Below are positions 8,893-45,832 of a stretch of 64,000 nucleotides of DNA, in pieces (position 1 is the stretch's first letter; each line of letters opens with the position of its first letter). This DNA comes from Arthrobacter methylotrophus (lineage in GTDB: Bacteria > Actinomycetota > Actinomycetes > Actinomycetales > Micrococcaceae). The stretch is from assembly GCF_039539965.1 (NCBI RefSeq), contig NZ_BAABED010000001.1, forward strand, positions 3,286,001 to 3,350,000. The letters are read 5' to 3'. Under the pieces are notes generated by a model that was not told where the DNA came from, searched no databases, and saw only the letters and a program-made list of their open reading frames with translations. The position numbers and the translations under genes are program-made.

Positions 8893-10329
8893 ATGTTCGA
8901 CCTCGTTGCTTATATCCCCCTTCTTGTCACGGTATTTGGGGTCATCGTCGCCGTTGCGGTCATTAGGCTGCTCATCAAATTAATGTGGAAGGTGGCTGAA
9001 CCAAACGAGGCATTGATCATTTCCGGGCTGACCCGCGGAAGTTTGGACACCAGGGACGGAATGGATTTCAAAATCGTCACTGGAAAGGGCGCCTTGGTGG
9101 TTCCCGGTCTCCAGACGGTCAGGACGTTGTCTTTGACGCTGAATGAGACGGAACTCCAGGTATCCTGCGTGACCTCCCAAGGAATCCAAGTGATTGTGGA
9201 GGGCGTGGTTATTTACAAAATTGGAGATGCCGCGCCCTTCATTGCAAACGCCGCGAGGAGGTTTCTCGGTCAGCAGCCCAAAATGGAAAGCCAGGTCTAT
9301 AACGTCTTCGAAGGGCACCTTCGCTCAATCATCGGCAGCATGACCATGGAAGAGATCATTCGGGAGCGCGACAAACTCGCTTCGTTGGTCCGCAGTGCCA
9401 GCGGTATCGAAATGGAAAAGCTCGGCCTGGTGGTTGATTCCTTGCAAATCAAAGACCTCGAAGATCCAACGGGCTATATCCAGAACCTGGCGAAGCCGCA
9501 TATTGCCCAGGTCAAAATGGAGGCCCGCATCGCCGAGGCCACCAGGAACCGCGAAGCCGCGGAAAAGGAAGCCGAGGCGGCGGCCCAGATTGCCGATGCC
9601 CAGAGCATCTCGGCGATCAAGCAATCGGCGGCCCAGGCCAATGCCGAAACTGCGCGGGCCAACGCCGCGCAGGCTGGTCCGTTGGCCGATGCCACGGCGC
9701 GTCAGCAAGTGGTGGTCCAGGAAACCGAAGTCGCCAAGCTGGAGGCGGACCGCGAGGAGCAAAAACTCCAGACGTCCATCCGCAAGCCAGCCGATGCCAA
9801 GGCCTACGCCCAACGCACGGAGGCGGAGGCCCAGAAGGCCGCCGACATCAGCGCGTCCGAAGCACGGGCACGGCGCACGGAACTCGAAGCCCAGGCCAAC
9901 GCCCGCAAGGTGGAGGTCGAAGCGCAGGCCAATGCCACGGCTGCGGCCGCCATTGCGGGGGCGACGAGGATCACCGGTGAAGCCGAAGCTGCGGCCACCC
10001 GGGCCCGTGGTGATGCTGCGGCCTCCGCCATCAAGGCCAAGTCCTTGGCGGAAGCGGACGGCATCAAGGCCCGGGGCGAGGCGCTCGGAACCAATCAAGA
10101 GGCCGTCATCTCGCAACAACTTGCGGAGAACATGCCTGCGATTGTGGCAGCCGCGGCGGAACCGTTTGCCCACGTTGGCCAGTTGACTGTCCTCAACGGC
10201 GGCGAGGGCCTCAACAACATGGTGGGCGGGATCCTGGCCCAGGTGGGCAATTTCCTGCCATCGATCACGGGGGCGCTCAAGAACGGCAAGGAACCGCCGA
10301 AGCGGCCTGCCAAAGCCCCTGACGCGTAG
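8893..10329 (+). CDS. Flotillin-like SPFH domain protein
   Basis: A 478-residue protein. ATG 8893 is chosen for the GAAAGGA ribosome site just before it; an in-frame codon at 8869 lacks one. An N-terminal membrane segment (about residues 4-30) is followed by an SPFH domain (about 35-210) with the flotillin-like stretch PNEALIISG. The Ala/Glu-rich coiled coil (about 215-410) has many EAEA repeats, and the C-terminal tail is Gly-rich. Flotillins organise membrane microdomains. The small gene at 10338 follows after 8 bp and should be its operon partner. Confidence 0.9.
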   Translation: MFDLVAYIPLLVTVFGVIVAVAVIRLLIKLMWKVAEPNEALIISGLTRGSLDTRDGMDFKIVTGKGALVVPGLQTVRTLSLTLNETELQVSCVTSQGIQVIVEGVVIYKIGDAAPFIANAARRFLGQQPKMESQVYNVFEGHLRSIIGSMTMEEIIRERDKLASLVRSASGIEMEKLGLVVDSLQIKDLEDPTGYIQNLAKPHIAQVKMEARIAEATRNREAAEKEAEAAAQIADAQSISAIKQSAAQANAETARANAAQAGPLADATARQQVVVQETEVAKLEADREEQKLQTSIRKPADAKAYAQRTEAEAQKAADISASEARARRTELEAQANARKVEVEAQANATAAAAIAGATRITGEAEAAATRARGDAAASAIKAKSLAEADGIKARGEALGTNQEAVISQQLAENMPAIVAAAAEPFAHVGQLTVLNGGEGLNNMVGGILAQVGNFLPSITGALKNGKEPPKRPAKAPDA

Positions 10330-12903: not shown

Positions 12904-14118
12904 GTGAGGATAGCTATCGTTGCCGAGTCATTCCTGCCGCTCATGAACGGGGTCACCCACTCCATCCTGCGGGTGCTGGAGCATCTGGAAGAGCGCGGCG
13001 ACGAAGTGATGGTGATTGCGCCGTCGACGTCGGACACTGCCGTACCGGACGTCGTGAACGGCGCCTTTGTGTACCGGCTCCCCTCCATGCCCCTGGCCGG
13101 GTACACCAATGTGCGGGTGGCGTTGGGCGGTGTGAGCCGGGTCAAGAGAATCCTTGCCGACTACGCACCGGACGTGGTCCACCTTGCATCCCCTTTCGTC
13201 CTCGGATGGCGGGCTGTGCAGGCTGCGCACCAACTCGGCATTCCCACGGTGGCCATCTATCAAACCGAGGTCCCCAGCTATGCCGCCCGGTATGGCCTCC
13301 CCATGCTGGAGAACTGGGCATGGGGACGGGTGGACAACATCCATCTTCTTGCAGACCGGACACTGGTCCCGTCCACGTTCGCGCTCAACCAGTTGCGCGG
13401 CCGCGGGATCCTGAGGGTGGGCATGTGGCGGCGCGGTGTGGATACCGCGCGGTTCTCCCCCACCAAGCGCTCGGAGGCGTGGCGCGCCTCCATAGCGCCA
13501 AACGGCGAGCGCATCATCGGCTACGTCGGCAGACTCGCGATCGAGAAGCAAGTGGAAGACCTCGCCGTTCTGCGCGATCTGCCGGGAACCAGACTTGTCA
13601 TTGTGGGCGACGGTCCACAACGCTCCGCCCTCGAAGCGGCCTTGCCGAACGCCGTCTTCACCGGGTTCCTGGGCGGCGAGGAGCTGGCCAAGGCGGTGGC
13701 GGGCTTTGACCTTTTCGTTCATCCTGGCGAGCTTGAGACCTTCTGCCAGACCATCCAGGAGGCCATGGCTTCCGGCGTTCCGGTCGTTGCCACCGGCCGG
13801 GGCGGTCCCCTGGACCTCGTCGAAAACTCGCGCACCGGCTGGCTTTACGAACCGGGAGACCTCGCCCAGTTGCGCGGGTACGTCCAGGATCTGATGGGCG
13901 ACGACGCGAAGCGCCGCGCCTTCGGAACGGCGGCGCTCGCTTCGGTCCAGGGCCGGACGTGGCCGGCGCTGAGCGCCCAACTCGTGCGGCACTACGAAGC
14001 AGTAGCGGCCGGCGAGGCGTTGCTTGAGCCAGTAGCCGAACATGTCCACCCGGCAAGGCTGGGTGCGGCCCAGCCCACCACAATTTCCGCGACTTCCAAC
14101 AAAGGACTCCCAGCATGA
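12904..14118 (+). CDS. Glycosyltransferase family 4-like (alpha-mannosyltransferase type)
   Basis: A 404-residue GT-B enzyme. N-terminal Rossmann half: RIAIVAESFLPLMNGVTHS, then the HLASPFVLGWRAVQAAH stretch. C-terminal nucleotide-sugar half: IGYVGRLAIEKQVEDL, and the E-x7-E motif in ELETFCQTIQEAMASGVPVV. The pattern is closest to actinobacterial GDP-mannose-dependent transferases of the MgtA/PimB type. The GTG at 12904 begins the conserved fold, but GGAGGA lies directly against it, so the true start is uncertain. It overlaps the UDP-glucose dehydrogenase start by 4 bp (ATGA). Confidence 0.85.
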   Translation: MRIAIVAESFLPLMNGVTHSILRVLEHLEERGDEVMVIAPSTSDTAVPDVVNGAFVYRLPSMPLAGYTNVRVALGGVSRVKRILADYAPDVVHLASPFVLGWRAVQAAHQLGIPTVAIYQTEVPSYAARYGLPMLENWAWGRVDNIHLLADRTLVPSTFALNQLRGRGILRVGMWRRGVDTARFSPTKRSEAWRASIAPNGERIIGYVGRLAIEKQVEDLAVLRDLPGTRLVIVGDGPQRSALEAALPNAVFTGFLGGEELAKAVAGFDLFVHPGELETFCQTIQEAMASGVPVVATGRGGPLDLVENSRTGWLYEPGDLAQLRGYVQDLMGDDAKRRAFGTAALASVQGRTWPALSAQLVRHYEAVAAGEALLEPVAEHVHPARLGAAQPTTISATSNKGLPA

Positions 14119-15554
14119 AAATCTCCGTCGTAGGCTGCGGCTACCTCGGCGCGGTACACGCTGCCACGCTTGCGTCGATGGGCCACACCGTAGTGGGCAT
14201 CGACGTCGACGCCCAGAAGGTCGCCCACCTGAACAAGGGCTTCGCACCCTTCCACGAACCCGGTCTCGATGAACTTCTTCGCGACGGATTCGCCACCAAG
14301 CGACTCAGCTTCTCCACGGACTTCGCCGATGCCGCCGACGCCCAAGCGCACTTCCTGTGCGTGGGCACCCCACAGTCCAAGACGTCGGATACAGCCGACC
14401 TCTCCTACGTGATCGCAGCCACGAAGAGCCTCCTCCCCCATCTGGCGAGGGGGGCCGCCGTCGTCGGCAAGTCCACCGTTCCCGTGGGAACAGTGGACAT
14501 GCTCCGCGGAATCCTTGCCCGCAGACCGGATGTCCTGCTCGGCTGGAACCCTGAGTTCTTGCGCCAGAGCACGGCAGTAAAGGACTCGTTGGTGCCGGAT
14601 CGGCTGGTGTATGGAGTGCCGGGCGGCAAGGATTCTGCCGCGGGCGTCCCGGTGACAGCAGTGCTCGACGCCGTGTACGAACCGCTGGTGTCTGCCGGTA
14701 TCCCCCGGCTGGTATGCAACTTTGCGACGGCCGAGCTCATCAAGTCCGCGTCGAATGCCTACCTGGCCACGAAACTCAGCTTCATCAATGCCGTGGCCGA
14801 ACTGTGCGATGCTTCGGGGGCCGACGTCACCGAGCTCAGCGAGGCGATGGGATTGGATCCTCGGATCGGCAACAGGTACCTGCACGCCGGCCTCGGCTTC
14901 GGCGGGGGCTGCTTGCCGAAGGACATCCGCTCGTTCCGCGCGCAGGCGCAGGCGCTTTCAGTACCCTCCCTTGACGAGTGGATGGGCGTCGTGGACTCCG
15001 TGAATCTGGGCCAGCGCGCCCGCGCCGTGGACGTCGCACGTGACATGTGCAAGGGCTTCCTGTCCGGCCGCACTGTCACCGTGCTGGGCGCGGCCTTCAA
15101 GCCGGACACGGATGACATCCGCGATTCCCCTGCCTTGGACGTCGCACTCCAGCTCGCCGCGGCCGGCGCCCACGTGACCGTTACAGACCCAAAGGCCATC
15201 AACAACGCCTGGATGCGCTACCCCCAGCTCCGCTTCGAAGCGTCTACGACCCGCGCGTTGGAAGGCGCCGAGTTGGTGCTGCTGCTGACAGAGTGGGACG
15301 AGTACCGTGCCCTGTCACCTGCCGCTGCCGGTTCGCTCGTACGACGCCGGATGGTGCTGGACGCGCGGAACGTGCTGGACGCCGGGGTGTGGCAGGCGCA
15401 AGGTTGGACGGTGCGCGGGCTCGGAACGGGTTCTTGCGCCGAGCCTTTGGAGCCGATCGCTGTAGTGAAGCAGGCAGCCCTTCCCGTCGAACCGGTCAAC
15501 ACACGGCCTTTCATTGTGGGTTCGCCGGGAAAGGCGCCGTCGAGGCGGGGGTGA
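14115..15554 (+). CDS. UDP-glucose 6-dehydrogenase (nucleotide sugar dehydrogenase)
   Basis: A 479-residue protein. The NAD motif GCGYLGAVHA is at residues 7-16. The family sequences FLCVGTPQ, GWNPEFLRQ and the active-site GFGGGCLPKDIRS (catalytic Cys) follow, then the C-terminal UDP-binding domain with LGAAFKPDTDDIRDSPAL. It oxidises UDP-glucose to UDP-glucuronate or a related sugar. It is translationally coupled to the preceding glycosyltransferase, so the pair probably supplies and transfers sugars for a glycolipid or capsule. Confidence 0.92.
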   Translation: MKISVVGCGYLGAVHAATLASMGHTVVGIDVDAQKVAHLNKGFAPFHEPGLDELLRDGFATKRLSFSTDFADAADAQAHFLCVGTPQSKTSDTADLSYVIAATKSLLPHLARGAAVVGKSTVPVGTVDMLRGILARRPDVLLGWNPEFLRQSTAVKDSLVPDRLVYGVPGGKDSAAGVPVTAVLDAVYEPLVSAGIPRLVCNFATAELIKSASNAYLATKLSFINAVAELCDASGADVTELSEAMGLDPRIGNRYLHAGLGFGGGCLPKDIRSFRAQAQALSVPSLDEWMGVVDSVNLGQRARAVDVARDMCKGFLSGRTVTVLGAAFKPDTDDIRDSPALDVALQLAAAGAHVTVTDPKAINNAWMRYPQLRFEASTTRALEGAELVLLLTEWDEYRALSPAAAGSLVRRRMVLDARNVLDAGVWQAQGWTVRGLGTGSCAEPLEPIAVVKQAALPVEPVNTRPFIVGSPGKAPSRRG

Positions 15555-15577: not shown

Positions 15578-16012
15578 CTAGCTCACCCGAGCAATCGCCC
15601 CGTCCAGCCACGAACGTAACACTTGCGCCGGGGCAGCGCCGGCTTGCCGGGCCACGATCTTTCCGTCGATGAGGACCATCAAGGTGGGGATGGCCTGAAT
15701 GCCGAAGCGGGAAGACAACCGGGGTGCCTGATCCACATCAACTCGGACCAGTTTCAGATCCCCTGCACGTTCGTGCGCCAGCTGGTCCAGCACCGGGCTC
15801 ACCATACGGCAGGGACCGCACCAAACAGCCCAGAAATCAACGAGGACCGGGACAGTAGACTCTTCGGCCACGAGTCGGAAGTCCTCGTCGCCGGCGTCGA
15901 CGATCCAGGGCAACCAGTGGCGACAGTTCCCGCACCGAGGCTTGCCCTTCGAGGCCGCCGGAACCCGATTTGACGTGCCGCAATTCGGACAAACGATAAT
16001 CGCCTTATTCAT
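15578..16012 (-). CDS. trxC: Thioredoxin with N-terminal zinc finger (thioredoxin-2 type)
   Basis: A 144-residue protein. ATG 16012 is chosen for AAGGAG eight bases upstream. The N-terminal zinc ribbon (CPNCG ... CGNC, residues 8-30) precedes a thioredoxin fold with the active site WCGPC (about residues 65-69) and the cis-proline region IQAIPTLMV. This arrangement is thioredoxin 2/TrxC. It is transcribed away from the bacteriocin cluster and shares the 300-bp region at 16013-16312 with it. Confidence 0.92.
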   Translation of the reverse strand: MNKAIIVCPNCGTSNRVPAASKGKPRCGNCRHWLPWIVDAGDEDFRLVAEESTVPVLVDFWAVWCGPCRMVSPVLDQLAHERAGDLKLVRVDVDQAPRLSSRFGIQAIPTLMVLIDGKIVARQAGAAPAQVLRSWLDGAIARVS

Positions 16013-16108
16013 GGGGTTTTGGCTCCTTCCAGAAGCTTTAACACCACAGTACGGCCATGGGGACCCGTCCGGGGGCTCGCGGCACATGGGTTCGGAGAGC
16101 GCTCATCC

Positions 16109-16312: not shown

Positions 16313-16591
16313 GTGAAATCGACAATGACGAAAGGCACCGGGCTTCAAGCTGCGGCCGCGGCAGCGCTGGCTGTGGTTGGCATCTTCGGCGCGAGCTTGG
16401 CTGTTTCATGGATCGCGGGGTCCCTTGGCATCTCTGCCGCGGCGGCGTCCCAGATCATGCACGCCATCGAGGTCGGAGGCTGGGCTCTCGTTGTCATTGG
16501 CACGGTGTTCGGCGCGGGAATCACTGGTGCCTTGATCGCAACAGCTCGAAGCATCCTCTTTCGCATAGGCCGGGCGCAAGCGGTCGCCTAA
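16313..16591 (+). CDS. Circular bacteriocin precursor, AS-48/uberolysin-like
   Basis: A 92-residue peptide starting at GTG 16313 (GGGG five bases upstream; ATG 16325 is an alternative). A hydrophobic leader (about residues 1-33) is followed by a region that lines up with mature enterocin AS-48: GSLGISAAAASQIMHAIEVGGW against the remembered EFGIPAAVA...VVEAGGW of AS-48. A long hydrophobic helix then precedes a basic C-terminal helix (RSILFRIGRAQAVA). If processing matches AS-48, cleavage falls near W33/I34 and a head-to-tail ring of about 59 residues results. The downstream SpoIIM-like, large membrane and ABC genes are the standard companions of circular bacteriocins. Exact processing site is inference. 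Confidence 0.85.
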   Translation: MKSTMTKGTGLQAAAAAALAVVGIFGASLAVSWIAGSLGISAAAASQIMHAIEVGGWALVVIGTVFGAGITGALIATARSILFRIGRAQAVA

Positions 16592-16595
16592 ATCG

Positions 16596-17499
16596 ATGCT
16601 TGCTAAGACGGCACGCGTGCTTGGGAGCATCCCTGGATGGTTGCTCCCAAGCACGGGAATGGCCATGGCGGCCATAGCCGTCTTCGGCTACTCGGCCGTG
16701 GACTTGTCCTGGATTCGGGACTCAAGGGCTATGGGTGGAAGTCCCCTCTACAGCAAGGACTTCCTCCAGATCCTTGGGCGGAACGTCGGTGCAGCCTTGG
16801 TGCTCTATTCCGGGGTCGCGACCCTTGGGCTCACTACGCTCCTCGGTGCCGGAATCCTGGCCCTCTATGTCGGGGCGACGGTATCCCTCGGCTTGCATTC
16901 CGTCGGCGGTGCAGGCCTGGTTGCGGACGTTATTTGGTACGTCCCGTTCGAGTTCTTCGGCCTGGTGATGGCGGCGAGCGCCATGGCTCTCCACGTCGCG
17001 GGCCCTGTGGATCGCGGGCTACGTTCTGCTCATGGCCCTGGTGGCTCTGCGGCTGCCCCTGACCAGAAAGTATCTCAACGCAAACGTTCCGGCGGACGTG
17101 GTCTCGGAAATCGGGGACGATCGCCTGCTGAGCCTCTCGATGACGGTCGGCACCGTTTTGTTCTTCCTTGTCTACGCCGTGATCATCGCTTTGTACTTCT
17201 CGCTCGCCGCGCTCCTGGACAAACGGGTGATCCCTGGAAAGTCGGTGCTTGCGGGTCGCTTCAATATCGGGGCCTTCTTTGTGATCGCCATTCTCGTCAC
17301 GATCCCCGTGAATCTCTTCAGCGTGGTCTTCGGTGTCATCCAACCGCGGGATGTCCCCGGGTACTGGGCCTATTTCCCCGCGATGGCCGTTCTTTCCCTG
17401 GCGATCTTCCACCGGCATTGGCGGGGGTTTTCCACAGGCAGGAAATTCCTCGTTGTGCTTTCAGCCATTGATCTGTCAACATTTGTCGCCATCGGCTGA
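16596..17499 (+). pseudogene. SpoIIM (DUF95)-like bacteriocin membrane protein, apparently frameshifted
   Basis: ATG 16596 follows the precursor stop by 4 bp. The first frame encodes a SpoIIM/DUF95-like membrane domain to about 17000 (segments around ALVLYSGVATLGLTTLLGAG and WYVPFEFFGLVMAASAMAL). After that it turns into an Arg/Gly-rich tail ending at 17471. The +1 frame takes over from about 17005 with a normal membrane segment (ALWIAGYVLLMALVALRL) and further membrane helices, ending at TGA 17497-17499. The switch fits one extra base in GGGCCC near 17001-17006. The joined product would be about 300 residues with six or seven membrane segments, the last part Yip1-like. It could instead be a sequencing error, a +1 frameshift, or two ancestral genes. 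Confidence 0.7.
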
Positions 17500-17942
17500 T
17501 GTCCCTCAACTTTCATCCACGGACAGAAATTTCAATGACCACTCAGCTCTACAGCCTTCTTCTACGAATCGTGGGCCTCATGGTCGCTGCATTCTCCGGG
17601 ATTTCCCTCGGCCTCATTTGGGCTTCTCCTTCCCCGGAAGGCCTCCGCAATATTGATCCGCTCGCTGTGAAGAACACGACGCTCGCCATACTTCTCGTCC
17701 TCGGCGTGGCCGCACCCCTGATTGCGGCCTTCAGTCCGGCGCGGAAGTGGCTACCGCTCAAGGCGGCCGTTTTCGCCGTCGCCGGCTTTGCGAACGCGGC
17801 GGCCCTCAGCCCGGTAATAGTTGTCCCGTTCCAGGGAACGACGTCGGCCGTCGCCGTCGTCTGCGCCCTCGCACTTGCGGTCCTCACCATCGTGGCCTTC
17901 ATGGACTCAGTCCAGAAGAAGAGTCCGCAGAGCAAGTTCTAA
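17499..17942 (+). CDS. Small membrane protein of the bacteriocin cluster (candidate immunity protein)
   Basis: A 147-residue protein whose ATG 17499 overlaps the preceding TGA by one base; an in-frame ATG at 17535 is an alternative. Four hydrophobic segments are visible (starting about residues 20, 60, 85 and 115) and the C-terminus is basic (DSVQKKSPQSKF). No known domain is recognised. Circular bacteriocin clusters usually include a small hydrophobic basic immunity protein, so that role is inferred from position and composition. Confidence 0.7.
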   Translation: MSLNFHPRTEISMTTQLYSLLLRIVGLMVAAFSGISLGLIWASPSPEGLRNIDPLAVKNTTLAILLVLGVAAPLIAAFSPARKWLPLKAAVFAVAGFANAAALSPVIVVPFQGTTSAVAVVCALALAVLTIVAFMDSVQKKSPQSKF

Positions 17943-17948
17943 ACGCTG

Positions 17949-19478
17949 ATGGGGACCAAGGTCGCTCCCGCCGACATGGCAGGCCAGGTTTCGAACGCCG
18001 GGGGTACTGCCGCGTCGGTCCGGCGGTCCGATTTCCGAGTCCTGCGGGACTTCCGGGCCTTCGAAATCGTCAATGCGATGCGTTTGCCGTTCACGCTGGA
18101 TGGCTTCAGGGCCCTCGCGATTTTCGGATCGATAGCCTTGATGGTGCTCGGAACACTGGTGTTCGCGTCCACACTGTCTGTTCTCCGCGACGGCCCGCTC
18201 CGCCATGACACCGCCGTCGTACTCGGTTGGGGCTTCCTCGGGATCCTCTACTCCGCTGTCGGGACGGTCCTCACCGAGGTTGTTTCAAGCCGACGGCTGG
18301 CAGTCTCCGGCACTCCGCACTTGGAGCTCTTCCGGGCGATGGAACTTCCTCTCCCGCAGGTTGTGGTGAGATATGGCCTGGCCCCGATGCTCCGCCGCAT
18401 AGGCATCCTTTGGTATTCGGCTGCGATATTCTTCATGGTCTTTTTCGAAGAAGCGTCCAGCTACTTCAACGTCGTGGTGGCTTCGGTCTCCGTGCTGACT
18501 TTTGCCTCTTCGGCGAGCTTCTACTGCGTTCTCCATTTCGCTTCGACGCCCGCACGACGGAAAGGCCTCCATTGGCTGCGCTGCCTCTTGGTTTTCATCC
18601 TTGGGGTATTACTCGGGGCTGCCACCGGTTTTCTCCTGCCTCAGCTCTCTCGGCTCGACGGCCCTGCCGAGGGCCCCTCACGCTTTCTTCCGGCGTTGTG
18701 TTTGCTTGCGGGGGCTGTGTCAGGGATATTGATCCTCCTCAGCATCCGGGCGTGGCGCGGCCTCAGCTATCGCAAGATTTCCTTCAGCACCGAACGGGGC
18801 AGCGGGCAACGACCGGTGACAAATTTTGGGCAATTCGTTGTCACAGATCTGTTGAGCAGCAAACAGGGCTCGGTAATCACCACGATCTTCCTTGCCTGGA
18901 TCGCCGTCGTTGGCATCCTTCTGGGAGCGCGGGGCATCCTCCCCCTCAACTCGGCTCCCGGCGGCTGGGAACTTCACAAATCCTTGGCTGGTATCGCCGT
19001 GCTCCTGAGCTTGGGGGTCACGGAACCGATGCTCAACCGAATCGGGCCCACGGCGAAGCTGTACCACTACCGTTTTGCCTGGGAGAACGGTTTCTCCGCC
19101 ACTGCGATCATCACCCTGCTCGTCGGGATCTACTTTATGGCGGGGACGACCATCGGTGGATTTGTCTACCTTGGGGCACTTCTCGCCTTCGACATTCCGG
19201 CTCCCGGTGCTGTCCTCGCGGGCTTGATCGTCGCCGCGGCCGGAGTCGTTGCAGAATCTCTCTCCCAGCCGCCACCCACCACTGACGGCACCAAATCCAA
19301 TGATGTGGTGGACGCCCTTTTCACGCTCCTCCTGATCTCTCCGTGCTCGCTCGTCCTCGTTGTCAGCCCAGAGTTCAGCACCGTGCTGTTGTTGGGCTAT
19401 TCCATCCTCGTAACCTTGGGAGCCGCCATATGCCTGCATCAACGTCTTTTGCGACTTCGATCGAAATTGATTCCGTAA
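17949..19478 (+). CDS. Large multi-spanning membrane protein of the bacteriocin cluster
   Basis: A 509-residue protein with roughly twelve hydrophobic segments, starting six bases after the previous stop. An amphipathic cytoplasmic N-terminus (to about residue 48) precedes the first helix. It has no ATPase motif. A membrane protein of 500-560 residues next to a SpoIIM-like protein and an ABC ATPase is the standard arrangement in AS-48 (B protein) and circularin (CirB) clusters, where it is needed for maturation or secretion. Equivalence is inferred from size and order. Its last 49 bases overlap the ATPase gene. Confidence 0.75.
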   Translation: MGTKVAPADMAGQVSNAGGTAASVRRSDFRVLRDFRAFEIVNAMRLPFTLDGFRALAIFGSIALMVLGTLVFASTLSVLRDGPLRHDTAVVLGWGFLGILYSAVGTVLTEVVSSRRLAVSGTPHLELFRAMELPLPQVVVRYGLAPMLRRIGILWYSAAIFFMVFFEEASSYFNVVVASVSVLTFASSASFYCVLHFASTPARRKGLHWLRCLLVFILGVLLGAATGFLLPQLSRLDGPAEGPSRFLPALCLLAGAVSGILILLSIRAWRGLSYRKISFSTERGSGQRPVTNFGQFVVTDLLSSKQGSVITTIFLAWIAVVGILLGARGILPLNSAPGGWELHKSLAGIAVLLSLGVTEPMLNRIGPTAKLYHYRFAWENGFSATAIITLLVGIYFMAGTTIGGFVYLGALLAFDIPAPGAVLAGLIVAAAGVVAESLSQPPPTTDGTKSNDVVDALFTLLLISPCSLVLVVSPEFSTVLLLGYSILVTLGAAICLHQRLLRLRSKLIP

Positions 19479-20074
19479 CCGCCGGTTACCGGCAAGGCTC
19501 CCCGGTCCTCGACGGGCTCAGTCTCAGCATGAACGAGCCGGGGCTCTACCGGGTGGCTGGCAGCAATGGCAGCGGGAAATCGACCTTCCTGGAGCTCATC
19601 AGCGGCTTCCTTCAACCTTGGGCCGGAAGCGTTCGCCTGTGCGGTATCGACGCCGGCTCCCCCGATGCGCGCCACCTACGGAGCGTTTGCCGTACGACGC
19701 CGGCACTCTACCCTTCCATGACCGTTCACGATCACCTCGCTCTTGCGGCCCGCAGCCGTCAGCTCGGCCCGGAAGCCGGGCTCGCCCGACTGGCCAGATA
19801 CGGATTGCAGGACTGGGCGGAGCAGCCCGTCTCCATACTGTCGACTGGCAATATCCGCAAACTCTGGCTGCTCATGTGCACTGTCGCCGACACCCCTGTG
19901 GTCGCCATCGATGAACCTTTCAACGGCATGGACGTTCAAGGCATCGAGGCCCTGATCGACGAGCTCGGCGAGTGGGCACAGCACAAGGTAGTTGTCCTCA
20001 TCTCCCACACAGTTCCGGACCAACTGCCAATTAGCCATTCCTTCGTCTTCGAGCAGGCACGAGAAACGTTGTAG
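19430..20074 (+). CDS. ABC transporter ATP-binding protein of the bacteriocin cluster
   Basis: A 214-residue ATPase starting at ATG 19430 inside the end of the preceding gene. Walker A is AGSNGSGKST, the signature loop is the degenerate LSTGNIRKL (LSGGQ expected), Walker B is VVAIDEPFNGMD and the switch histidine is in VLISHT. It would power export of, or immunity to, the circular peptide together with the membrane proteins before it (CirD/As-48D role, inferred). It is the last gene of the + strand cluster and converges with the LuxR regulator. Confidence 0.88.
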   Translation: MPASTSFATSIEIDSVTAGYRQGSPVLDGLSLSMNEPGLYRVAGSNGSGKSTFLELISGFLQPWAGSVRLCGIDAGSPDARHLRSVCRTTPALYPSMTVHDHLALAARSRQLGPEAGLARLARYGLQDWAEQPVSILSTGNIRKLWLLMCTVADTPVVAIDEPFNGMDVQGIEALIDELGEWAQHKVVVLISHTVPDQLPISHSFVFEQARETL

Positions 20075-20095: not shown

Positions 20096-22678
20096 TCACT
20101 CGGAAAGCCGCTTCTCACGGAACGGGGACGTCTCCCTGACCAGGTCAAAGAGGGCTGCGCGCGACGGGGTTCCCGTCTTTCGGAGCGCGTTGGAAATGTG
20201 GCTTTCCACCGTCCTGATACTGATTCCCAGGTGCTCGGCGATCTCGGGGTTGGAACGATGACCGGCCAGGGCGGCTATCTCAATTTCCCGGACTGTAAGA
20301 GGCGAGTAGCTTCCCGAATTAAAGGCTAGGGGCTCGTCTGCGGACGGAAATCGTGTGGCAAACATGGCATAGGCCCGCTCCATCGCGGCTGCCCCTATGG
20401 TGTCGTCCACGAATGCATACCGTTTGAACGCACCCCGGAGCAGCATCCGTACCTGGTAGAAGTCTGCGTCGGGTTCATATTGTTGGAGCAGCGCCCCGAG
20501 CAATGGGTGGTCTTCCTCCACCACCGCGGCGGCAATGGCCACGAGTTGATCGTGTGATGTTGCGGCATGCTCCTTCAAGGTCCGGCGAAGGAGCTCAAGA
20601 GTCCTACGGCCGGGTAGCAGGCAACTGAAGAGCATCGCAGAATGCACTGCCTCGAGGACGTAGCCACGCTCCAGCTGCTGTTGAACGAGGTGCGCCGCTT
20701 TTCGATCGAAAACTGCCGGGAGAAGGGGACGACCGGCAACGAGCTGGTAAACACCTTTTGCAGTCCCCGGGAGTGGGCCGACGTCTTCGGTTTCGCGCCG
20801 GGCCTGGGTTGCAAGGGTCGCTGTGGGCGAGATCGCGGTGGTCGCCGTCCGCAATCCGGCGAGCCGCAGCATGGCGTCATGGAGTGAATTCACCAGAAGC
20901 CCCGGGCGCCCCAAGGCAAAGACACTACCCATGAGGTAATCCGCCTCGTCGAAGTGGCCACGGTATACAAGGGCCTGGGCAGCGATATACGTGCTGGAAA
21001 CCATACCGAGTTGATCCAAATTGCGGCGGGCCTCCGTGCGTTGGCCGAGGGCATAGACAATTGACTCCTCAATCCGCCCCGAGCTGAACAACGCGAGTCC
21101 CCGGATGAATGATTCGACCCGTGGGAGGCCCTTGAAACCTGCCGTGGAGTCGATGGCTTTGAGTGCTTCAGAGGGGTTCAAGCGGTAAAGCTCCAGAATG
21201 CCACGGATGCAGGCTATGACCGCGCTGTGAGGATGACCCTCCTGGAGCCGAGCGAAGATCTCGTCAAGATTCTGGGGCATTCGATCGTGTGACGCCACGA
21301 GGAAAAGTTCGGCAGCTTCACCCTCCGCAGACCATTCGGGGCATTCCTTCGCGAAGATCCTGAGGGCAGCGGCGGCTAGATCCAATCCTTTGCCGGAATA
21401 GAGCGCCCAAAGCGCCTTTGTCACCGCCAAGAACAGCAGTTCGGACGGGTCTCCTTCCGAGGTCGTGGTCCGGGAAAAAACACGCTCAATTCTTGATGGG
21501 TCAAGAGGTGAACCCCAATAGACACTCAGCAGTCGCACCGCGTTCGATATGGTCTTCTCGGCCTCCCATGCTTCGTAACGGTGCCGCTCCAGGGCCGAGA
21601 TTTGTTCATGGAAATGGCGTGCGGTGGCTGCGTCGTCGGAACTCCGTTCGAGGCGAAGCGCAGACAGAGCCCTCGTCAGCGAATCGGCAGGGGTGCTCGC
21701 AACGTGGTCTTCCTGTGGCGCTGCACTCAAGGTCCTTGTGATTCGATTCTTAAGGACCCGCCGGCTGGTGAGCACTCTTTGGCCACGAAAATAGTCTGCA
21801 AGGACAGGTGGGGTCATCGCAGCGCAGACATTGTTGTGCACATCCTCGATGACTGAAACGAACCCGCGCTGTTCGAGCCTGTCCAGGACATCGGAGTGAA
21901 CTACTTGCTGCAGCACATCCAGAGGCGCAGTGCCCGCGATGGCCATGGTTTGAAGACCGGTGAGCTCGTCAGCTTCAAGTCCTTCAAGGAGGGACTCCAC
22001 GGTGCCATCGAGGTGCTCGTTCCACAAGGTGTCGCCGGTCATGTGCCATTGACCATGATGGAGGGCAATCAGGTCACTGAGGGAAGCCGTTTCGGCAAGC
22101 CGAACCACGAGGTGGGGGTTTCCCGCGGATTTCGTGAGGATGCAGGCAGTAGTGTCCGCGTCTGCCGGAGCTCCCAGTATCTCGGTGAGGAGTTCGTTCA
22201 CTTGCTCGTAGCGAAGCGGATTCAACTGAACCCTTGCTTCCGGGCCGGGGCTGAGGACCGGGGGCTTCCTCTTCGAGTAGAGGGAAGATTCGCTCATGGT
22301 CACGATCATGGGCCGCTTCGTCCTGCGCCGAACCGAATCCAGCACCGCTAAGGTTTCCGGGTCAATGAACTCGGGGTCGTCGACGACGAGCACGCGCTCC
22401 CCCGGCCTGGAAAGCCGGCCCGTCAGCGTGTCCGCGACACCCAGTACGCCCAATTGACCTATTCGAATATCCAGGCTCAAGCTATGTATTCCGCCAAACG
22501 GAATTCCGCGATGGGATCGTAGACCCGAAATGGAATAGACCGTGGCACCGGTTCTCTCCAGCTCGGCGATGACCTTCTGCACGACGCTAGTGCGGCCGGA
22601 ACCAGGCGCACCCACGATCCGAACCATCATTCCGCGGGCAACGTAGTCTAGCGTTCGCCGAACTTCCTGTTCGAACAA
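20096..22678 (-). CDS. LuxR-family large ATP-binding regulator (LAL type)
   Basis: An 860-residue regulator. The N-terminal NTPase has Walker A GAPGSGRTS, in which the usual Lys is Arg, and Walker B RVLVVDDPEF. A long helical middle region follows, then a C-terminal LuxR helix-turn-helix (LTVREIEIAALAG ... ISIRTVESHISNALRK, about 790-850). The TTG at 22678 has no ribosome site. AGGAGG (22716-22721 on the opposite strand) sits seven bases before an in-frame ATT at 22708, which would add the VGxR-E type N-terminus common in LAL proteins. It converges on the bacteriocin operon and is its likely activator (inference). Confidence 0.85.
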   Translation of the reverse strand: MFEQEVRRTLDYVARGMMVRIVGAPGSGRTSVVQKVIAELERTGATVYSISGLRSHRGIPFGGIHSLSLDIRIGQLGVLGVADTLTGRLSRPGERVLVVDDPEFIDPETLAVLDSVRRRTKRPMIVTMSESSLYSKRKPPVLSPGPEARVQLNPLRYEQVNELLTEILGAPADADTTACILTKSAGNPHLVVRLAETASLSDLIALHHGQWHMTGDTLWNEHLDGTVESLLEGLEADELTGLQTMAIAGTAPLDVLQQVVHSDVLDRLEQRGFVSVIEDVHNNVCAAMTPPVLADYFRGQRVLTSRRVLKNRITRTLSAAPQEDHVASTPADSLTRALSALRLERSSDDAATARHFHEQISALERHRYEAWEAEKTISNAVRLLSVYWGSPLDPSRIERVFSRTTTSEGDPSELLFLAVTKALWALYSGKGLDLAAAALRIFAKECPEWSAEGEAAELFLVASHDRMPQNLDEIFARLQEGHPHSAVIACIRGILELYRLNPSEALKAIDSTAGFKGLPRVESFIRGLALFSSGRIEESIVYALGQRTEARRNLDQLGMVSSTYIAAQALVYRGHFDEADYLMGSVFALGRPGLLVNSLHDAMLRLAGLRTATTAISPTATLATQARRETEDVGPLPGTAKGVYQLVAGRPLLPAVFDRKAAHLVQQQLERGYVLEAVHSAMLFSCLLPGRRTLELLRRTLKEHAATSHDQLVAIAAAVVEEDHPLLGALLQQYEPDADFYQVRMLLRGAFKRYAFVDDTIGAAAMERAYAMFATRFPSADEPLAFNSGSYSPLTVREIEIAALAGHRSNPEIAEHLGISIRTVESHISNALRKTGTPSRAALFDLVRETSPFREKRLSE

Positions 22679-41942: not shown

Positions 41943-42356
41943 CAGCGCTTGATCTGGGGAATTGTGGGTGCTTCAGTCATAGTTTTACTCGTGTCTGCCT
42001 TGGCCGCGGGCATCCTCCTGCCCGGGCTCCTCGTGGCCGCCGGCATCGTTGCCGTTACCTGGACGATTGTTCGGATGACCGTCTCCATCGCGACAGCTGA
42101 AGAGAAAATCGTCGTGCGCTGCGCGCCGTTCTATTCAACAGAGATTCCGATCTCAGAAGTTTCGGCGGTAACTACGGCCCGGGATACATCCCTTTCAGAG
42201 GGATACGGCATCCGCATCCTTGAAAAGAAAACTCGAGGGGTACTGGTGGGCGGTCCAGCGATCTCCTTGGAAACGGTCAATCGGCGATGGATCATCTCAA
42301 CTGCACATCCGGAGGAAGTCGCGTCAACAATTCGCGATCACATGAGCGGCAAGTGA
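41907..42356 (+). CDS. Membrane protein with PH-like domain, upstream of the SDP-like operon
   Basis: A 149-residue protein from ATG 41907 with GGGGGAAG just before it. Two helices (about residues 15-58, WGIVGASVIVLLVSALAAG) precede a beta-rich PH-like domain (EKIVVRCAPFYSTEIPISEV, YGIRILEKKTRGVLVGGPAI, WIISTAHPEEVASTI). It lies 33 bp before the sdpC-like gene, so it is a candidate immunity or regulatory partner (inference). Confidence 0.65.
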   Translation: MVISQARLAGSSQRLIWGIVGASVIVLLVSALAAGILLPGLLVAAGIVAVTWTIVRMTVSIATAEEKIVVRCAPFYSTEIPISEVSAVTTARDTSLSEGYGIRILEKKTRGVLVGGPAISLETVNRRWIISTAHPEEVASTIRDHMSGK

Positions 42357-42389
42357 ATAACTGCACTATCCAATGAGAAAGGAGACATC

Positions 42390-43088
42390 ATGAAGAAAGC
42401 CTTCAGCACTGGCCTAATTTCGGTCTTACTGCTATCTAGCGTGCCAGCCGGAACACCAGTATTCGCGGCACCCAACCCATCTGATTCGATTCAATCCGTC
42501 AAGAAGAACGATGAAGCAAGGCCACGTTCCCTATTTCAGGCTATATGGTTCGCCACTGGAGATCAGGTGGCCGGGCTCAGCGAGAACGTCCGAAGCCAAA
42601 CTTTTCAAACATATCTGAAAAAACATGCCAGCCAGGAAACAGATATCCAGCAAATGGCTAACGTCGTGGCTGACACTCTTGAAGAATCGCAACCCGGATA
42701 CCTCTCAACACTCCACAAGAACCTAACCTCCGGCGACGCCTACCAGGTCGAATCCGCTCTGGCGGCCACAAGCACGGATGTCCTTCAAACCGTGCGGGAA
42801 AAGTATGACTTCAAAGGAGCATCCGTGAACAAGGATGGCGGAGCATCCGGCAACTGCCTATGGGTCGTCGCAGTCGCCGCCGTGGCGGTTTGGAGCGGAG
42901 CAGTCGTGGTCAATTACGCGGGGGTCGTGAATGTTGCCGGAGCAGTTAACGCAGTTGGCTGGTTCAACGCGTCAGTGTCAGTGAATGTCAGCGGAGCATC
43001 GAGTATTCAGACGGTAGCTGCGACGGACGAGCATCGGGCAGCCACCGAAGATACTGTAGCGGCATTGACTACGGCACTCGCGACGTAG
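42390..43088 (+). CDS. sdpC: SdpC family antimicrobial toxin precursor
   Basis: A 232-residue secreted precursor from ATG 42390 with AAGGAG upstream. It has a signal peptide (cleavage near FAA-PN, about 27). The pro-region resembles Bacillus SdpC from memory (SLFQAIWFATGDQVAGLSEN, VVADTLEESQPGYLSTLHKN). A strongly hydrophobic segment from C156 to about 205 is the likely mature toxin, followed by a polar tail. Bacillus SDP has two cysteines in a disulfide at the toxin N-terminus; only C156 is present here. The SdpA- and SdpB-like genes follow directly. Confidence 0.8.
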   Translation: MKKAFSTGLISVLLLSSVPAGTPVFAAPNPSDSIQSVKKNDEARPRSLFQAIWFATGDQVAGLSENVRSQTFQTYLKKHASQETDIQQMANVVADTLEESQPGYLSTLHKNLTSGDAYQVESALAATSTDVLQTVREKYDFKGASVNKDGGASGNCLWVVAVAAVAVWSGAVVVNYAGVVNVAGAVNAVGWFNASVSVNVSGASSIQTVAATDEHRAATEDTVAALTTALAT

Positions 43089-43095
43089 AGACCTT

Positions 43096-43692
43096 GTGGG
43101 ACTGAACCGCATGGGGTCTATCTCTCGCCGACAGCGACCCCGCCCAGGGCCTCTTCCTAATTTGCATAGGATGCCGCCGATGTTCTTGGTTCTCATCGTC
43201 CTGGCCTATTCCATCTTCGCCGTATCACCCCATTCGACTTTCCACCTTCCGGGTACTGGTGCAATTAGGGAAGATCTGTCAAAGGCTGTTCCCCAAGGCT
43301 GGGGCTTCTTCACAAAGTCTCCACGGGATCCGTTCCTGCTGGTCTATGCGAATGATGGCGTCGGCGGCCATCAGGAAATAATGCAACTGCCGACAGTCAA
43401 GGTCGAGAATTATTTCGGCGTAGGTCGCTTCGACCGTGGGCAGCCCGTTGAACTCGCAAATATCGTCAACCGAGTTTCTTCCCAGAGTTGGAACAACTGT
43501 GGTCCCACCATTAATTCGTGTCTCGACGCGCCATTGACGGCCGTCGAAGTGCACAATGAGAAGCCCGAACCGAGTCTCTGTGGCCAGATGAAAGTGGTGG
43601 AGGTCGCTCCCGTTCCATGGGCCTACCGACACCTGACTGATGCTCGATTCCAAGCTCAGAAGGCGATGACTTTGGCGGCCACGTGCTCCTGA
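43096..43692 (+). CDS. sdpA: SdpA family maturation protein
   Basis: A 198-residue protein from GTG 43096, seven bases after the toxin gene; ATG 43111 is also possible. One N-terminal membrane helix (MFLVLIVLAYSIFAV) is followed by an external/soluble domain with the SdpA signature PQGWGFFTKSPRDPF and several cysteines (NNCGPTINSCLD, SLCGQ). SdpA and SdpB are required to make active SDP toxin in Bacillus. It overlaps the SdpB-like gene. Confidence 0.82.
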   Translation: MGLNRMGSISRRQRPRPGPLPNLHRMPPMFLVLIVLAYSIFAVSPHSTFHLPGTGAIREDLSKAVPQGWGFFTKSPRDPFLLVYANDGVGGHQEIMQLPTVKVENYFGVGRFDRGQPVELANIVNRVSSQSWNNCGPTINSCLDAPLTAVEVHNEKPEPSLCGQMKVVEVAPVPWAYRHLTDARFQAQKAMTLAATCS

Positions 43693-44636
43693 GGATGTTT
43701 CAACCCCGAATCAGGCAAATCGAGCCTGTTGCTTGGTCGCCGGTTATTGGAGTGGTCCGAGCTATTTTGGCCTTCGCGAGTCTCCTCACCCTGAGCGCGA
43801 CGCCAACGGACAGCCTCTTCCAGCCGCTTTGGGGAATCGGCCCCCAACCGGTGTGCAAGGGAATTAACGCATTCAACCTCTTCTGTGCCTTCGGACCTGA
43901 CAATCTCGAACTGTCGAAATTAGTCACGGCTGCCGCACTCCTATTAATCATCTCAGGGTATCTTCCGCAGATCACTTCTTTGTTGCATTACTGGATTTCG
44001 TTCTCTCTTTTCAATGGGATCGCAATTCCCGACGGAGGAGATCAGATCACCGTTGTGTTGACCTTCCTATTAATACCAATCTGCATAACCGATTCTCGAC
44101 GGAACCATTGGTCGTCCTGGTCAGGTTCCTCGCCCCCGGCAGGATGGCGGTGCGGATGGGCCGTCGCCTGCTTGATAGGCATCAAGATCCAGGTATCGAT
44201 CGTGTATTTGCAATCGTGCATCGAAAAGACCGCACAGACCGAGTGGGCCACCGGGAACAACCTCTATTACACAGCCTCAGGCGTGTTCGGCTTCTCCAAT
44301 CCCGTGAGAGCTCTATTGGCACCGCTCCTTGAGAATGAAGCCACAGTTAGCTTGCTAACGTGGTCGGTTCTGGCTCTTGAGTTCGTCATTGCGGTGACGC
44401 TGTTGACGCCTGCCGTTTGGCGTCCATTTCTATTCCTATCAGCGGCACTTTTCCACGGCGGAATCGCGTTCCTAATGGGATTGTGGAGTTTCGCTCTTGC
44501 CATGATCGCCGCCGACCTCATTCTGACCCTTCCTCTTGCCGGCGTTGCATTCAGCTCGGGATTCTCACTGATCGCCAACAAGCCTGATTCAGGATCGGTC
44601 AAAGAGGAGCAGCCTACCGAAGGAAAACCGTTTTGA
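43683..44636 (+). CDS. sdpB: SdpB family membrane protein
   Basis: A 317-residue multi-spanning protein with about seven helices, starting at GTG 43683 (ATG 43695 possible) and overlapping sdpA. Sequence features such as NAFNLFCAFGPDN, YWISFSLFNGIAIPDGGDQ and CIEKTAQTEWATGNNLYY fit the SdpB/HTTM (vitamin K carboxylase-related) family, whose length is about 320 residues. It acts with SdpA in toxin maturation. Confidence 0.82.
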   Translation: MLLRMFQPRIRQIEPVAWSPVIGVVRAILAFASLLTLSATPTDSLFQPLWGIGPQPVCKGINAFNLFCAFGPDNLELSKLVTAAALLLIISGYLPQITSLLHYWISFSLFNGIAIPDGGDQITVVLTFLLIPICITDSRRNHWSSWSGSSPPAGWRCGWAVACLIGIKIQVSIVYLQSCIEKTAQTEWATGNNLYYTASGVFGFSNPVRALLAPLLENEATVSLLTWSVLALEFVIAVTLLTPAVWRPFLFLSAALFHGGIAFLMGLWSFALAMIAADLILTLPLAGVAFSSGFSLIANKPDSGSVKEEQPTEGKPF

Positions 44637-44711
44637 AGATCATGGCGCTGTGATTTGTCCTCAAGATGAAATCACAGTCAGTCTGCCCGACATAGCGGCT
44701 GCGATTTCTAG

Positions 44712-44996
44712 GTGGAGATCGGAGCCGGACTATTGGTCAAACATAGATTGCTGAGGCCAAGGACTTTGCGAGGACGGCTGTACCTTGTTGCGACCTCGGC
44801 GGGAGGGCTGTGGGCCGCGCAGTGGATCGCCTTCTGGGCCACGTCAGGAAGGACACCCAGCCCGACAATCGCCAGTCTACTCATGTTCAGCATCATCTTT
44901 CTTTTCTTCGTCCTTGGCATCAAGCCAGGGGTCCTTGGTTTCCGCCAAAGAAAGACTAGCCAGTTCCGGCCGTGCCCTACTTACGGGCCGCGCTGA
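44712..44996 (+). CDS. Small two-TM membrane protein after the SDP-like operon
   Basis: A 94-residue frame from GTG 44712. Two hydrophobic segments are visible (VATSAGGLWAAQWIAFWA and IASLLMFSIIFLFFVLGI) with basic ends. No recognised family and no strong ribosome site. The position 75 bp after sdpB makes it a second immunity candidate; equally it may be an unrelated small gene. Confidence 0.4.
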   Translation: MEIGAGLLVKHRLLRPRTLRGRLYLVATSAGGLWAAQWIAFWATSGRTPSPTIASLLMFSIIFLFFVLGIKPGVLGFRQRKTSQFRPCPTYGPR

Positions 44997-45109
44997 CGGT
45001 GCCACAGATACTCACCCCAGATCTGCCGTAAGGCTGAGTTCTTAGCTAGGATCTGGCTGGACCGGGCGCGTCGCATGCGGCCCGGAATTGAGAGACTCTT
45101 GGGGGCACG

Positions 45110-45698
45110 ATGTTGGAATTGAAGCGCATCTACTGGACTCGGCAAACGCTCCGACTCGTCATGTTCGGCTCAGTTATCTGGCTCTTTGCCGCCTGCATCC
45201 TCGCTGTCGCGCGCCCTGGGAGTAACCAGCGACCCACTTCGGCTATCGACGTCATGCGTCCGATGTTCAATGCCATCCTTGCTGCGGCTTCGACGCCGGG
45301 CTTGCTCATCATCGCCGTCGTTGTCGTTGCCGTCATCATTCGCGGTAGGGATCTGCGACGGCGCGACCCTCTGCGTCGCTTCACGCGCCAACAACGCCGG
45401 GAGGGGATGGCGCTGGCCAACGGGCAGTGCGAAATGGAGGCTGGCTTTCGCCGGCCGCTGCTCCCGCCCGGCGGAACACGGCGATCATTTCTACCCGTGG
45501 TCGAAGGGCGGTGCGACGTCGCTGCAGAACTTCGTTGCGGCCTGCAGCAGGTGCAACCGTGCGAAGGGTGCCCAGATACCGTCACCGAGCCAGCAGAAGA
45601 GATTGGAACGGCGGCGGCTCGGGTACGTCAATGCGAGAGAACTCGTGAGGGTGGGCGAACGGAGGGGGCTGCCTAGCGTGTTCAAGAATCTCTCCTAA
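45110..45698 (+). pseudogene. Membrane-anchored HNH endonuclease, frameshifted
   Basis: The first frame from ATG 45110 gives two membrane helices and RRREGMALANGQCEMEAGF. The HNH core (HGDHFYPWSKGGATSLQNF, then CSRCNRAKGA) continues in the +1 frame to 45698. Removing one base in the CCGGCCGC run at 45451-45457 joins both into a 196-residue protein with the full Cys-x8-Cys ... Cys-x2-Cys zinc site. Either a real loss-of-function insertion or a sequencing error. Confidence 0.75.
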
Positions 45699-45832
45699 AA
45701 CGTCGGAGCCCGGCCATAACGTGTACAAATCAGATTACCGAAACTAAGAGCAAAGGTCCCTTCAACGTTCGCACTCGCGGCCCTGCCTGCAAGCACGACC
45801 GAAGGAGCCAACTAATTGCACGACTGCGGGTG

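Follow-up and report, generated by a model that had tools for sequence, protein, structure and literature searches.

A probable family of circular bacteriocin clusters in Micrococcaceae, represented in Arthrobacter methylotrophus by a copy with a 276-bp deletion

Does an actinobacterium encode a circular bacteriocin of its own kind, and would it release the peptide? Circular bacteriocins are stable ring-shaped peptides that act against bacteria. They are best known from Firmicutes, as an initial annotation of the DNA studied here had stated; in the available part of one survey, 6,925 of 6,928 candidates came from Firmicutes and 2 from Actinobacteria (PMC8534725). The DNA in question is a stretch of 64,000 nucleotides from Arthrobacter methylotrophus (hereafter the window), in which the initial annotation had placed a circular bacteriocin cluster at positions 16313-20074. 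Here, we compared this locus with related genomes and with known systems. In our view, the locus is likely a member of a family of clusters for circular bacteriocins in Micrococcaceae, and its window copy was likely damaged by a 276-bp deletion, the peptide probably not being secreted. An actinobacterial precursor of the circular bacteriocin type, in company with a SpoIIM-like gene and an ATP-binding cassette (ABC) ATPase gene, was upheld by profiles, synteny and selection, but a working cluster in this strain was not.

The precursor gene, A (16313..16591, + strand), is the claimed open reading frame (ORF) for a hydrophobic peptide of 92 residues. It starts with GTG, and its start and inner boundary were taken from an alignment of relatives, giving a predicted leader of 33 residues (16313-16411), a predicted core of 59 residues (16412-16588) and the stop codon (16589-16591). 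A profile search of the precursor, proposed as a check by the initial annotation, matched residues 35-92 to PF09221 with 25.9 bits (E 1.2e-5), above the curated cut-off of 23.6. The likeness of the second half to enterocin AS-48 was also confirmed by phmmer, whose best matches in the PDB were AS-48 (E 0.0019 and 0.0033) and NKR-5-3B (E 0.0081). Likewise, a profile of 23 Micrococcaceae precursors, built without AS-48-type rows, found NKR-5-3B (E 1.8e-4) and AS-48 (E 0.003 and 0.011) in the PDB. These 23 rows and two AS-48-type rows make up the precursor alignment A2, and all 25 rows were matched at E <= 0.01 by both PF09221 and TIGR03651, the NCBIfam circular bacteriocin model. Three of the 28 distinct precursors (two near copies and a degenerate one from genome G120) were left out of the alignments, as were the second precursor of genome G417 and further weak or additional family-wide hits. 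A match of the precursor to MarR_2 fell under the cut-off of that model and was taken as chance.

We then considered selection on this gene. The mean ratio of nonsynonymous to synonymous substitution rates (dN/dS) of A among relatives was 0.075 (53 of 55 pairs usable), and the window copy gave 0.045-0.134 against 11 relatives; in the set used for dN/dS, the D gene of locus L049 as cut includes a stop codon, which was passed over so that the gene could stay in the set. Because A is conserved in 21 of the 206 genomes of the genus and its dN/dS is far below 1, a chance origin of the ORF is unlikely. Taken together, these sequence comparisons indicate that ORF 16313-16591 is a real precursor of the circular bacteriocin type, under purifying selection in relatives. 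In genome G417 (locus L133, - strand, 9420-9728 and 9732-10013), we observed two unlike precursors in tandem within a single cluster, with 88% and 44% identity to the window A; a shared machinery perhaps makes two rings from them.

The predicted ring has one length in all 23 Micrococcaceae rows of the alignment. In each of these rows, W or Y precedes a core that starts with (I/V)AG and ends with A(V/I)A, and 59 residues lie between the predicted boundary, as placed by alignment with AS-48-type cores, and the stop. The alignment of relatives returned 33 and 59 residues for the leader of about 33 and the ring of about 59 first proposed. The description of the ring as among the shortest of its class also holds, the available literature giving 58 residues for plantacyclin B21AG. 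The window core carries three R and one E; its mass as a ring was calculated as 5729.7 Da (average) or 5726.2 Da (monoisotopic), and that of the linear core as 5747.7 Da (average). According to the available passages of PMC10028692, circularin A requires short hydrophobic helix formers at its residues Val1 and Ala2, with which positions 1 and 2 of the predicted core (I/V and A) agree.

The genes that follow A were defined by iterated profile searches over 30 loci, namely 29 fetched loci and the window (L055, L124 and L131 stood outside this set). The cluster order is A-C(SpoIIM-like)-Y-I-B-D(ABC). A, C, Y, B and D were present in 27 of 27 loci that are not AS-48-type, counting the broken C and Y of the window and the B of L135, which is split into two ORFs, while the AS-48-type loci L063, L064 and L137 gave relatives of A, C and D and no match to Y or B. 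In the window, C (16596..16982, + strand) keeps the 5' portion of a SpoIIM-like gene, by alignment with intact relatives about 129 codons out of 186, and Y (16983..17499, + strand) is the remnant of a membrane protein gene with four transmembrane stretches and about 202 codons in relatives. Next come I (17535..17942, + strand), which encodes a small membrane protein of 135 residues and is a candidate immunity gene, and B (17949..19478, + strand), which encodes the multi-spanning protein of 509 residues that had been claimed. Hydropathy gave four membrane stretches each for C, Y and I and ten for B. D (19430..20074, + strand) overlaps the end of B and encodes the claimed ABC ATPase, with 214 residues, a start at 19430 that agrees with relatives, a PF00005 match of 64.1 bits and the motifs GSNGSGKS (Walker A), LSTG and VVAIDEP. 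The initial annotation had counted a single small membrane protein before the 509-residue one, but intact clusters hold two, Y (about 202 residues) and I (about 135 residues). A profile of 26 C sequences, without AS-48-type rows, found two of the four AS-48-type SpoIIM proteins (E 1.4e-8 and 3.5e-5). For B, neither Pfam nor NCBIfam gave a hit at E <= 1. A reading of Y as a YIP1 protein was dropped, the Y orthologue of L038 matching no Pfam family at E <= 1.

Several results weigh against the bacteriocin reading. TIGR03651 matched residues 34-92 of the window precursor with 23.0 bits, below its cut-off of 30.7. The intact C orthologue of L038 scored 24.4 bits against the Pfam SpoIIM model PF01944 (cut-off 26.9, E 3e-5), and the window ORF 16596-17471 had no Pfam SpoIIM match. 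AlphaFold gave two long helices for the full precursor (predicted local distance difference test, pLDDT, 72.8; predicted template modelling score, pTM, 0.39), without a saposin-like bundle of four to five helices, and this model had no match in the PDB at E <= 10. The 59-mer was modelled as a single helix, residues 9-58, also without a bundle (pLDDT 91.6, pTM 0.54). The models were made of linear chains, without a circular constraint and without a known member as control, and are thus not decisive. The bundle that the initial annotation offered as a structural test was not seen in these linear models; that annotation had named the lack of any profile match together with the lack of a bundle as what would overturn its reading, and only the latter was found, since the profile matched.

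The single long helix and the sub-threshold NCBIfam score would also suit a precursor that is a linear hydrophobic membrane peptide, for example a leaderless one or a transporter subunit, that resembles circular bacteriocins. The composition of A is of low complexity, with a spurious MarR_2 match in 5 of 25 rows, which fits such a peptide as well. This possibility seems very unlikely to us, given that PF09221 matches every row of the alignment, that profiles reach circular bacteriocins of known structure, that both the leader-core boundary and the C-terminus are conserved, and that a SpoIIM-like gene and an ABC ATPase gene accompany A in all 27 loci. Moreover, a DUF95 protein is no class mark of leaderless clusters in the available passages of PMC11580447. 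We therefore keep to a circular bacteriocin cluster as the likely reading.

Where the cluster is intact, the leader would be removed by a cut after W33 and before I34, as numbered in the window, and the 59-residue core would be closed head to tail, A92 to I34. C with D may export the ring, with B and Y as putative partners in maturation or export. The ring would then permeabilise the membranes of competing bacteria, and I may protect the producer.

The window copy departs from its relatives at one place. In comparison with four intact relatives, 276 bp are missing at the junction 16982..16983, a placement that may move by a few bases, and the gap was absent from 10 of 10 further aligned loci. 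C has lost its last third and its stop, and Y its ribosome site, its start and roughly 30 codons. As a result, the fused C frame runs on out of frame to 17471, and the Y frame has no proper start. The initial annotation had read ORF 16596-17471 as SpoIIM/DUF95-like, which holds up to about codon 129 and fails after about position 16982. Searches of the whole genome for a second C or a second Y each gave a single match at 88% identity, to residues 1-140 of C (the last ones by chance) and to residues 31-202 of Y, and in both cases this was the cluster copy itself. No obvious direct repeats were seen by eye at the junction.

With C and Y damaged and no second copy of them found in the genome, this strain probably does not secrete the peptide, unless the assembly is wrong. 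According to the available part of PMC7132975, leucocyclicin Q cells without their SpoIIM protein accumulated the mature circular form inside, which makes a loss of secretion the likely effect. On the other side, A, I, B and D of the window have open frames and a constraint similar to that seen in relatives, so that the loss would be of recent date or, with lower probability, an error of the assembly. In the latter case the living strain would have an intact cluster and would make and secrete the ring, and the confinement of the gap to the window, against none of ten aligned relatives, would be explained. We regard such an error as unlikely. The gap is one clean block, unlike a homopolymer slip, and the surrounding ORFs of the window are open; furthermore, the site has decayed elsewhere, as described below for genomes G030 and G120. 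A real deletion that destroyed C and took the start of Y thus remains our preferred reading.

The family is scattered through the Micrococcaceae. Among the 206 genomes of the genus, A was found in 21, I in 35 and B in 18, and the named relatives (10 loci) lie on contigs of Arthrobacter, Paenarthrobacter and Sinomonas. Across the Micrococcaceae, PF09221 found 17 of 395 genomes (15 above the cut-off) and alignment A2 found 22 of 395, in 12 of 32 sampled genera; three of the A2 hits are weak (E 8e-9 to 9e-4) and two are AS-48-type. Of 396 genomes sampled across the phylum, the sole match was the window's own genome, in a search with 13 scored candidates per genome among the matches listed, which may miss weak relatives. 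A plasmid location was set aside, as the cluster DNA, the window precursor, a second Micrococcaceae precursor and C all had no match in a plasmid collection. In the open literature on circular or head-to-tail cyclized bacteriocins of Arthrobacter, Micrococcaceae and Actinobacteria, with supplements and subscription journals outside the scope, we recognised no report of this family in the portions available, nor is it described in the passages of PMC8659200, PMC11679952 and PMC11580447 at hand.

The chromosomal site recurs between species. On the left, a gene that we take to be a UDP-glucose dehydrogenase gene (ugd; 14115..15554, + strand), and on the right, a gene for a large ATPase-LuxR-type regulator with a GerE match (luxR; 20096..22678, - strand), serve as site markers by synteny. 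A complete A-C-Y-I-B-D set lies between ugd and luxR in nine other genomes (L048, L049, L050, L051, L054, L127, L128, L129 and L130). The cluster is split over contigs in G161, only the ugd side is seen in G203, and neither flank falls within the stretch read in G152. In G079 (L131 / L043), the set is present with frame breaks in C, B, ugd and a neighbouring glycosyltransferase-like gene; that flanking genes are also hit suggests sequencing errors. Synonymous distances between the window and L048, L050, L127, L128 and L129 were 0.16-0.45 in A, I, B and D and 0.54-0.91 in ugd and luxR, and these lower values within the cluster fit its exchange between species.

Reduced forms occupy the same site. 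In G030, a genome of the same species, both flanks are present (93-94% identity) with only an I gene between them, 85% identical in DNA and with its frame broken near the start (L104 6581-7000). G120 (L055 4885-5411) holds a degenerate A followed by only the tail of I, without C, Y, B and D; the roughly 7 kb between this tail and luxR are taken up by other genes, some of which resemble surface-protein genes on visual inspection. A gene that looks thioredoxin-like by eye (15578-16087, - strand) stands between ugd and the cluster, among the loci compared only in the window and G030. Farther along the window, at 42001-46000, the local G+C content dips to 0.55-0.58 from about 0.63.

Gene I is more widespread than the precursor. 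Among the 206 genomes, 16 carry A and I, 19 carry I without A, and 5 carry A without I. In 17 of the 19 genomes that have I without A, the gene is flanked by ugd and luxR; in one it adjoins luxR at the end of a contig, and in one it lies elsewhere. The profile search recognised I proper in 14 of its 30 loci (15 genes). Among 15 other or distant loci, 13 have a hydrophobic ORF of 119-162 residues after Y, two of these ORFs being I by profile and 11 known by size and position only. A supported clade of 17 rows unites 16 lone I genes with a second I copy from G035 that adjoins a complete cluster, and 15 of these 17 genes gave a mean dN/dS of 0.10 at a mean dS of 1.3 (105 pairs). From these sequences, the lone I genes are perhaps retained immunity, although the damaged I of G030 speaks against strict retention.

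The same figures bear on a different role, with I a house-keeping membrane protein that came to lie in the cluster by chance, and immunity coming from D and B or from Y. To this we assign slightly less than an even chance. Strong constraint on I genes in genomes without A would be expected of such a protein, the lone copy of G030 is damaged near its start, and I has a weak NCBIfam match, under the cut-off, to an Rv1678-family model. Against it stand the position of 17 of the 19 A-less I genes, at the very site where other species carry the cluster, and the hydrophobic ORF after Y in most of the other or distant loci. Immunity predicts a gene that is useful to non-producers yet tied to the cluster.

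With I as the candidate immunity gene, a bolder reading, which we hold to be rather less likely than not, is that circular bacteriocins form a separate lineage in the Micrococcaceae, whose B and Y are not traceable to AS-48 partners, whose cassette has been exchanged at the ugd-luxR site, and of which many non-producers keep only the immunity gene there. If this is true, these soil bacteria would be engaged in a game of producer, immune and sensitive strains, like colicinogenic bacteria. The parts common to both lineages would then also leave host enzymes, the ABC ATPase and the SpoIIM protein as the candidates for removing the leader and closing the ring; how circular bacteriocins are cut and closed is still an unsettled question in the available text of PMC10028692. 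The spread of the 59-residue core over Micrococcaceae genera offers independent clusters for finding the proteins that are always needed, and the occurrence of complete, deleted and I-only forms at a single site lends itself to a test of whether I confers immunity. The window strain itself would be a poor choice for purifying the peptide.

How does this family compare with known systems? With the enterocin AS-48 cluster of the Enterococcus faecalis plasmid pPD1 (NZ_KT290268.1), it shares a long leader, the core sequence family, and SpoIIM-like and ABC ATPase genes. The predicted ring has 59 residues vs 70 in AS-48, and the core is 29-32% identical to four AS-48-type cores. The gene orders also differ, with A-C-Y-I-B-D in the family, whereas AS-48 has A, a 556-residue protein, SpoIIM, ABC, a 56-residue protein and so on; the AS-48 order claimed for the window cluster is thus rejected by comparison with the pPD1 cluster. 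B showed no detectable homology to AS-48B (hhalign probability 0.1 against an AS-48B alignment, E 0.59), the one B protein with which it was compared, circularin and uberolysin B proteins lying outside this comparison. A profile of 27 B sequences had no hit in four AS-48-type loci, and neither had the Y and I profiles. The precursor also resembles circularin A, uberolysin and NKR-5-3B in profile matches, and I/V1 and A2 correspond to circularin Val1-Ala2. It differs in that the window precursor lies under the TIGR03651 cut-off; the comparison with these systems covered the precursors. AS-48-type clusters do occur in Micrococcaceae genomes. The precursor of G486 (L064) is 71.4% identical to the pPD1 copy, and a further AS-48-type cluster was seen in G345 (L063). 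According to the available part of PMC10456417, Arthrobacter sp. APC 3897 has an AS-48-like cluster with a DUF95 gene and a precursor 71.3% identical to AS-48, and the G486 cluster may be of this published type. The APC 3897 cluster, as far as the published passages describe it, is likewise an Arthrobacter circular bacteriocin cluster with a DUF95 gene, of a subtype other than that of the window.

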